Source: Hyphomonadaceae bacterium (GTDB lineage Bacteria > Pseudomonadota > Alphaproteobacteria > Caulobacterales > Aquidulcibacteraceae). From it: a stretch of DNA of 64,000 nucleotides. Below, piece after piece: positions 36,374 through 64,000 of the stretch. The stretch is from NCBI GenBank assembly GCA_009773395.1, contig WRPI01000003.1:186001-250000 (forward strand), read 5' to 3'. The notes under the pieces were generated by a model, which searched no databases, was not told the origin of the DNA, and worked only from the letters and a program-made list of their open reading frames with translations. Position 1 is the first letter of the stretch. Each line of letters begins with the position of its first letter. A program made the translations under genes and the position numbers.

Positions 36374-36445
36374 ACCTAGCGCAAAGGATGTTCAAGAAGA
36401 CGTGAACATTTGCGCTAGTTCTTTACTTTGCCGCTCCTTTTTACC

Positions 36446-52637: not shown

Positions 52638-52730
52638 ATTCCATTTCATCGGCGATACTTCTCATAACAAATGTGTGACCCCCGATAAATTTGCTTGACC
52701 TAAGCCAATGAACAGGCCAAACAGAAATTC

Positions 52731-52908
52731 TCGCGGGAGAGTGTAGTCAATTGCATTACCGCCGAAGGAGCAACCGCGCCCCGGAAACTCTCAGGCAAAA
52801 GGACCGTGATAATTATGGAAGCTGGAGAGTGTGAAGGTTTGCCTTCGCCGCCGAAGGAGCAAGCCGCAGAGCGCGGTCAAATCTCTCAGGTAAATGCACA
52901 GCGGGGCG
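52731..52908 (+). promoter_or_regulatory. Tandem glycine riboswitch
   Basis: Two consecutive aptamers. The first (52731-52809) has GGGAGAGTGTAG, GCCGAAGGAGCAA and CTCTCAGGCAAAAGGACCG. The second (52821-52908) has GGAGAGTGTGAAGG, GCCGAAGGAGCAAGCC and CTCTCAGGTAAATGCACAG. These are the conserved glycine aptamer elements. The RNA precedes gcvT and by family knowledge turns on the glycine cleavage genes when glycine is high. About 45 bp remain to the gcvT start, and GGGG near 52943 is the ribosome binding site. This suggests control of translation rather than termination. Confidence 0.95.
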
Positions 52909-63389: not shown

Positions 63390-63752
63390 GAAGATTTGCC
63401 TTTCGCGTTTGTTGTCTAGTCGTAAGGCTCGCGCCGAGGAATTTCAAGCAGAGCTTATTGACCGCGATATCGGGAAAATTGCTTCGTTTAATATCTATAT
63501 TTGATAATCTACCAAATCATAGAAAAATCGGTTATGATTATGCTTGTCGCTGACGGGCGGCGCGATATGCAGTCCTTATTGGAAATGCGCGTTTTGCGTT
63601 AGCGCGTTGGACGTTCAAGTTGCATAGAATTTGCTGTAGCAATTTTGTGCGAGTTTTGGTGACAAATATGCGGTGAATACTGGGGTATTCGCTAAATATT
63701 TGTTGCCGAAAATCGTGCAAAAGGGCGCGGCAAAACTGTGCAAATTGAGCGT
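63390..63752. other. Gene-free spacer dominated by a large inverted repeat
   Basis: 363 bp between the membrane protein gene and adk. The part from 63600 is the long inverted repeat listed separately. The part 63390-63599 has no recognisable gene or motif and must hold the promoter of the membrane protein gene. Confidence 0.6.
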
Positions 63753-63763
63753 CTAACGCGCTA
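63600..63763. repeat. 164-bp imperfect inverted repeat starting inside the 3' end of adk
   Basis: Left arm 63600-63680 and right arm 63685-63763 around a TGGG loop. Outer ends: TAGCGCGTTGGACGTTCAAG against TAGCGCGTTAGACGCTCAAT. Inner ends: GGTGACAAATATGCGGTGAA against GGCAACAAATATTTAGCGAA. Mismatches are spread along both arms, and many are of a kind that keeps G-U pairs in RNA. The right arm contains the last adk codons and its stop. The whole could fold as one long hairpin, or it could be a miniature mobile element. Confidence 0.8.
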
Positions 63764-64000
63764 GAGCCAAAACTCTATCTATTTCCGCCGAGACTTCTTT
63801 AATACTCGCCATGCCATCGACTTCTCTAATCAAGTTTCTGGCTTCATAAAACGGCAATAACGGCGCGGTTTGTTCATTATATGCAACAAGCCGTTTTACA
63901 TAAACTTCGGGATTATCATCGGAACGGCCTTGCTGCTCAAAGCGCAAAGAAATGCGGTTCACCAATGCGACTTCATCCACCACTAGGCGAATTACATGGT
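63753..64000 (-). CDS. adk: Adenylate kinase (partial, N-terminus outside window)
   Basis: C-terminal 81 codons of adenylate kinase, which interconverts ATP, ADP and AMP. The frame is open to the window edge. It reads HVIRLVVDEVALVNRISLRF, then the LID-to-C-terminal part RSDDNPEVYVKRLVAYNEQT and VDGMASIKEVSAEIDRVLAL. The stop codon lies within the outer part of the large inverted repeat. Its usual downstream neighbour rpsM is more than 1 kb away here. Confidence 0.9.
   Translation of the reverse strand, partial: HVIRLVVDEVALVNRISLRFEQQGRSDDNPEVYVKRLVAYNEQTAPLLPFYEARNLIREVDGMASIKEVSAEIDRVLALAR

Follow-up and report, generated by a model that had tools for sequence, protein, structure and literature searches.

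The adk gene in the window, by which we mean the whole 64,000-nucleotide stretch that was analysed, ends inside a long inverted repeat. This raises the question of whether the repeat is a mobile element that supplied the stop codon of adk or a structured RNA, as the initial annotation had proposed, or a palindrome unique to this place. The annotation of an imperfect inverted repeat at 63600-63763, with arms of about 80 bp matching throughout around a 4-nt loop, agreed with our data: the coordinates fit both the alignment of copies and a TA-to-TA match between two of them, and the fold reproduced the arms and loop with a few small internal loops. The features discussed below are as follows.

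63600..63763, + strand (best-folding strand): MITE-like element of 164 bp (folds, genome BLAST, alignment and covariance-model search)
63600..63601, no strand: TA at the left end, candidate target-site duplication (end comparison and L206/L207 match)
63600..63680, + strand: left hairpin arm, interrupted by short internal loops (fold and consensus pairing)
63681-63684, + strand: hairpin loop of 4 nt (fold)
63685..63763, + strand: right arm of the hairpin (fold and consensus pairing)
63762..63763, no strand: TA at the right end, candidate target-site duplication (end comparison and L206/L207 match)
63753..63998, - strand: 3' region of adk, truncated where the window stops; the TAG stop, the A and R codons and part of the final L codon are inside the element

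Fold of the inverted repeat

RNA folding of positions 63590-63775 (the element with 10 and 12 flanking bases) gave -109 kcal/mol for the + strand (z -15.2), with 0 of 200 shuffled sequences equally stable, versus -64.7 kcal/mol (z -8.2) for the - strand of the same stretch. The consensus fold of the family described below consists of 72 pairs with a few small internal loops. At these pairs the window copy showed 12 G-U and no A-C combinations, in keeping with the initial observation that C/T and A/G differences between the arms preserve G-U pairing. When 280-bp stretches around the copies were aligned, similarity was limited to the element and the flanks were dissimilar.

Several other identities were rejected. 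An intrinsic terminator was rejected on the number of terminator-like sites (1, with 1.1 in shuffles), and an Rfam RNA family was rejected because nothing at the element reached the gathering threshold, the best sub-threshold match being mir-283 (18 bits versus 50 needed, E 0.91). Coding constraint was likewise rejected, as no reading frame was open across all 25 aligned copies; the best frame, on the minus strand, was open in 14 of 25, and a peptide may be produced from it in some copies. At about 164 bp the element is too short for a transposase gene of its own. No promoter-like site was found within the window copy, and one located upstream on the + strand (63501-63528) was at chance level (2 found, 1.2 in shuffles). 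Elsewhere in the window, positions 52724-52816 contain a glycine riboswitch aptamer (Rfam RF00504, 70 bits).

A dispersed family with TA ends

BLAST of the own genome (G000; 2.63 Mb in 17 contigs, assembly 99.86% complete) with the element returned 36 match rows, mostly at separate places. A search with covariance model R1, built from 25 copies, gave 66 rows over both strands and 36 distinct places in G000, of which 30 were full-length (162-164 bp). Two further copies of 206 bp carried a 42-bp insert, and shortened, split or weak copies were located at C15:389322, C7:73993, C12:33224 and C15:42307, the last being a weak match of only 50 bp. The 25 aligned full-length copies spanned 164 columns with zero indels. 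A unique palindrome was rejected on the basis of the 36 places, and the outcome that the initial annotation had named as counting against it, a single copy with neither homologs nor compensatory changes, was tested for and is absent. A palindrome-rich insert of about 42 bp was seen in three copies (L016:1604-1644, L023:1459-1499 and L024:1461-1501), in two of them at an identical position.

BLAST detected no copy of the element in 60 other genomes. The covariance model identified one diverged 164-bp match (L180, 102 bits) in the congener G001, with 49-63% ungapped identity to the 25 copies of alignment A1, together with a second, weak match (E 0.06); BLAST within G001 revealed no close sister of L180. 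Three of the four congeners (G002-G004) gave no covariance-model match, and neither did 55 other genomes of the family, which were searched with stricter filters than the congeners. RpoA places the own genome beside Pseudaquidulcibacter saccharophilus (93% identity), and the range of the element among the genomes examined is one Pseudaquidulcibacter-group (Hyphomonadaceae) species plus one diverged copy in a congener. Plasmid or phage origin was rejected, as blastn found no match of the element in plasmids or phages. An exact 26-base core pattern, which diverged copies escape, had 0 matches in viral_contigs and 0 in genome_contigs, a collection that may omit the own genome.

Copies usually start with TAG(A/C)GC and finish with its complement, GC(T/G)CTA. 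TA was present at both ends at 23 of 29 places as cut, and the other six had a changed or misplaced terminal base. The copies L206 and L207 were 95.7% alike over 163 bp in unrelated flanks, and their match, compared with 1.5 kb of flank each, started at the first TA and stopped at the last TA. The site of L017 contained no element in congeners G001 and G003, where the sequence at the junction fits a single TA, the flanks being too diverged for an exact call; at the site of L009, G002 lacked the element and had a spacer of comparable length. Congener sites yielded no exact TA duplication, with the flanks of L009, L006 and L010 diverged or non-syntenic and no congener flank matches reported for L002 and L003. 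In the own genome the end pattern had 69 matches, some of them in other elements, versus 7 for the reversed control; in the congeners the TIR pattern had 0-4 matches per genome, similar to the reversed control (2-4).

The search for a mover covered four Pfam families, PF13358 (IS630/DDE_3), PF01797 (Y1_Tnp, RAYT), PF01609 and PF13586, and each gave 0 matches in the genome; the Y1_Tnp search was positive in 5 of 14 control genomes. An IS630-derived MITE of the RUP type was rejected because the genome gave no DDE_3 match, and a REP/REPIN with RAYT because it gave no Y1_Tnp match.

Another repeat family, about 366 bp long, had its interior at six places among the loci examined (L110, L111, L116, L119, L127 and L193), and in L110, L116 and L119 its first ~33 bp resembled the 164-bp element (nhmmer E 0.003-0.03; by eye). 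The combination of common ends with different interiors therefore points to recognition of the ends of both families by one enzyme. The interior of this second family, represented by the copy at L110:1633-1998, differs from that of the 164-bp element and has a CCTAGG...CAAG hairpin; at L193 it lies in the left flank.

Pairing and strand bias

Three copy sets were compared: a first alignment whose 29 rows cover 28 places (L023 and L028 represent the same one), A1 with 25 copies, and A2 with 31 copies including that of G001. A1 and A2 exclude the interrupted or truncated copies L016, L023, L024, L026 and L128 and the 50-bp match at C15:42307, and one intermediate set omitted L028 and L016. In A1, 96.6% of 1800 cells were paired versus 89.2% in shuffles. 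Two-sided changes occurred at 39 of the 72 pairs versus 14.7 in shuffles, and the covariation score was 0.281, compared with 0.136 in shuffles and no more than 0.072 in slid structures, although related copies can inflate such figures.

The pairing classes were strongly asymmetric in both larger sets. The first alignment contained 1724 Watson-Crick, 233 G-U, 15 A-C, 55 other and 61 gapped cells, and A2 contained 1877 Watson-Crick, 226 G-U, 27 A-C, 101 other and 1 gapped. Shared ancestry was lessened by comparing 15 disjoint closest pairs of A2 copies, which left L180 without a partner. Their one-sided differences were Watson-Crick/G-U in 68 cases versus Watson-Crick/A-C in 13 (p 4e-10), a count that cannot separate new G-U pairs from G-U pairs reverted to Watson-Crick; the eight pairs with 14 or fewer differences gave 31 G-U versus 2 A-C one-sided changes. 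Among variant types, those shared between copies numbered 18 G-U versus 2 A-C in A1 and 24 versus 5 in A2, and singletons numbered 20 versus 7 and 23 versus 10, respectively, so that singletons were less biased, though not significantly (Fisher p 0.27 for A1; p 0.25 for A2). Counted more strictly, private changes numbered 5 G-U versus 4 A-C. The strand bias is secure at the level of the family and suggestive among changes since insertion.

Folding revealed the same preference: 31 of 31 copies in A2 folded better on the + strand, with means of -95.9 versus -71.3 kcal/mol. The proposal of a structured RNA, extended here to single-stranded DNA (ssDNA), is thus upheld by the two-sided compensatory changes and the strand-specific G-U pairs. 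The simplest reading is that the folded + strand is selected while copies propagate, and selection or copying probably acts on this strand, as RNA or ssDNA, because upkeep of a palindrome as DNA only offers no evident reason for G-U on one strand.

That DNA-only account, in which the element is a plain palindrome, arm-to-arm conversion preserves the similarity of its arms and no folded strand is under selection, does predict one feature of the data, as blocks of adjacent pairs (columns 7-13) vary jointly between copies, and it fits the private-change count, which has no strand bias. Conversion and decay are strand-neutral, however, yet one-strand G-U was favoured 68 to 13, and C/T and A/G differences both contribute, so that deamination of C on one strand is no explanation. 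We regard this account as already disfavoured and very improbable.

DNA folding was also better on the + strand (-53.8 versus -38.4 kcal/mol), and RNA and ssDNA are therefore not told apart by the folds. Folded single strands are recognised by IS200/IS605, by REP-associated Y1 enzymes and by attC-site systems. A transposase or recombinase could similarly recognise the folded + strand of the present element as ssDNA, with G-T wobbles kept as less harmful than A-C. The much better DNA fold of the + strand would suit such recognition, as would the independence of the strand bias from the orientation of neighbouring genes, but the genome has no Y1_Tnp match, though that search succeeded in control genomes, and the symmetrical TA ends resemble double-strand insertion with duplication. 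We therefore consider recognition as ssDNA unlikely. We favour selection on the + strand as RNA, since RNA normally accommodates G-U pairs and published work describes Correia hairpins as RNase III substrates.

Gene ends and relation to known repeats

Gene context was examined at 29 places using predictions from a codon-usage gene caller rather than annotation. No copy lay inside a predicted gene (0 of 29). Nine of the 29 places had predicted gene ends, ten in all, that shared exactly the TAG at the element end; four further ends including that of adk overlapped the element by 11 bases, and six other gene overlaps ranged from 10 to 53 bases. L205 and L207 provided two additional gene ends with the element TAG, and at L017 two convergent predicted genes both stopped at the TAG of the element.

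On the - strand, adk ends ...GCT CTA GCG CGT TAG, and the element begins at the second base of the CTA codon. The C-terminus accordingly reads V-L-A-L-A-R-stop, and the element contributes everything after the first base of the final L codon, through A and R to the TAG. Both related proposals, that the right arm covers the last adk codons and stop and that a MITE-like element supplied this stop, hold for this end, and the MITE-like character itself was corroborated by the 36 dispersed places, the TA-bounded ends and the empty L017 site. The C-terminal ends of relatives are SIDTALA (L031), AIDAALAG (L035) and AIDKALAG (L041). If the flanks are joined at a single TA, the adk frame would read ...LALTQNAHFQ-stop, and insertion therefore probably replaced the tail of the adk protein. 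The best-folding strand of this copy is antisense to adk.

The adk-rpsM link is broken here, as initially annotated, but a role of the element in causing the break was not supported. The interval in the own genome also holds a 178-aa ORF, and in the relative L031 about 1.9 kb separates adk and rpsM, with no match to the element in that interval (blastn with the own region); the break therefore need not come from the element.

Relative to the element, the neighbours at the 29 places were oriented +- in 10 cases, -+ in 8, -- in 6 and ++ in 5, and the best-folding strand is not consistently sense to them, being about equally sense and antisense. This argues against any constant function in the mRNA of the neighbours and bears on a further explanation, that the host maintains each copy in place for gene regulation, as a functional non-coding RNA or 3'-UTR element. 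The compensatory changes and nearly fixed length would be expected of such an element, and many copies adjoin gene ends, including the ten that use its TAG. Against it stand the mixed orientations, the emptiness of the sole closely alignable site (L017) in two congeners and the lack of a covariance-model copy in three of four congeners, and we judge a host RNA to be quite improbable, somewhat more so than recognition as ssDNA.

We consider it likely that the element is a copy of a non-autonomous, TA-inserting MITE whose + hairpin strand undergoes selection as a transcript. This reading starts from the observed family, its ends, an empty site, covariation and strand bias. The TAG(A/C)GC...GC(T/G)CTA ends would be moved in trans by a transposase, for which the four Pfam families gave no match, and insertion at TA would duplicate the TA, as the ends and an empty site suggest. 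Because the element starts with TAG on both strands, a TAA or TAG stop codon hit by an insertion would be restored, and gene 3' ends would tolerate insertion. In propagating copies the + strand would be selected as a transcript, as RNA rather than ssDNA. The resulting long double-stranded RNA hairpin, a putative RNase III substrate, might shield or process the RNA that contains it, a presumed benefit that would make insertions tolerable.

More tentatively, the folded + strand could itself be the propagating or protecting form, with spread of the MITE depending on a strand-specific hairpin of RNA or replication-exposed ssDNA; we find this possible but doubtful. If true, TA transposon ends would here carry a selfish structured RNA or ssDNA, and the element would not be a defective insertion sequence; G-U would be kept on one strand irrespective of adjacent genes, and the length and fold of propagating copies would be nearly constant.

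Published ERIC, YPAL, Correia and RUP repeats are described as 100-200 bp long and located between genes, with TA ends, hairpin RNA and a mostly unknown mover (PMC2229807), and gene-end fusion is reported for RU-1 (PMC2759123) and QMITE2 (PMC5896051). Likened to such repeats by description, the 164-bp element is a new family within a known kind, the bacterial TA-ended MITEs. ERIC/RU-1 and YPAL/RU-2 of enterobacteria resemble it by description as hairpin elements (127 and 167-168 bp) with TA ends, TA duplication, fusion to gene 3' ends and an unknown mover, but they inhabit other hosts and the relevant passages do not mention a strand-specific G-U bias (PMC2229807, PMC2759123). QMITE2 of Coxiella burnetii is also similar by description, with 150-190 bp, a transcript hairpin near -113 kcal/mol, mostly 3'-UTR and intergenic locations and overlap with the last codons of several genes, whereas its direct repeats are 7-11 nt and not TA, and it carries a GTAG REP used by IS1111 (PMC5896051).

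Correia/NEMIS repeats of Neisseria (107 and ~155 bp) have TA ends, hairpin RNA and a mobilising mechanism described as undetermined in the literature (PMC2649163, PMC2229807), and their RNA is cleaved or bound by RNase III (PMC2649163); they have 24-bp terminal repeats (PMC2229807), whereas the 164-bp element pairs throughout. RUP of Streptococcus pneumoniae is non-autonomous (107 bp, TA target, 108 intergenic copies), but it has ends in common with IS630-Spn1, and IS630 was proposed as its mover (PMC2229807), whereas the own genome gave no match to the IS630 DDE_3 domain. CIR elements (Caulobacter, Brucella) are alphaproteobacterial and intergenic, with TA at the ends and conserved RNA structures, but they comprise two hairpin arms with an exposed GANTC (PMC2229807), whereas the 164-bp element is one hairpin. 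CIR membership was rejected on this motif, as only 18 of 31 copies, the window copy not among them, have GANTC, and it falls at stem positions 23 or 137-138 rather than in an exposed loop.

Compensatory changes in intergenic hairpin repeats have been described for Borrelia plasmids (PMC2674063), and according to a review, transcripts of MITEs fold into stable stem-loops (PMC10969869). A literature search by titles and abstract openings found no report of strand-specific wobble conservation in bacterial MITEs, and the strand bias is the part of this family worth following up. In bacterial MITE hairpins, a by-product of the palindrome and a selected fold are hard to distinguish; much better upkeep of the fold on one strand than on the other, across both gene orientations, separates the two and makes the question testable. 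The element also illustrates how an insert starting with TAG can land harmlessly on stop codons.

Other repeats of related appearance were observed in the own genome. A 107-bp element at L112:1532-1638 has the same type of ends and adjoins another TAGAGCG motif. A hairpin of about 41 bp with TAGCGC ends is present at window positions 36377-36417 and at L124:1684-1724, with similar sequence following each. At G000:C7:87808-89019 (L006), a gene that by eye is short-chain-dehydrogenase-like lies between two like-oriented copies of the 164-bp element. Alignment spacing suggests that G001 and G003 lack this stretch at the corresponding position, which resembles a composite mobile unit.
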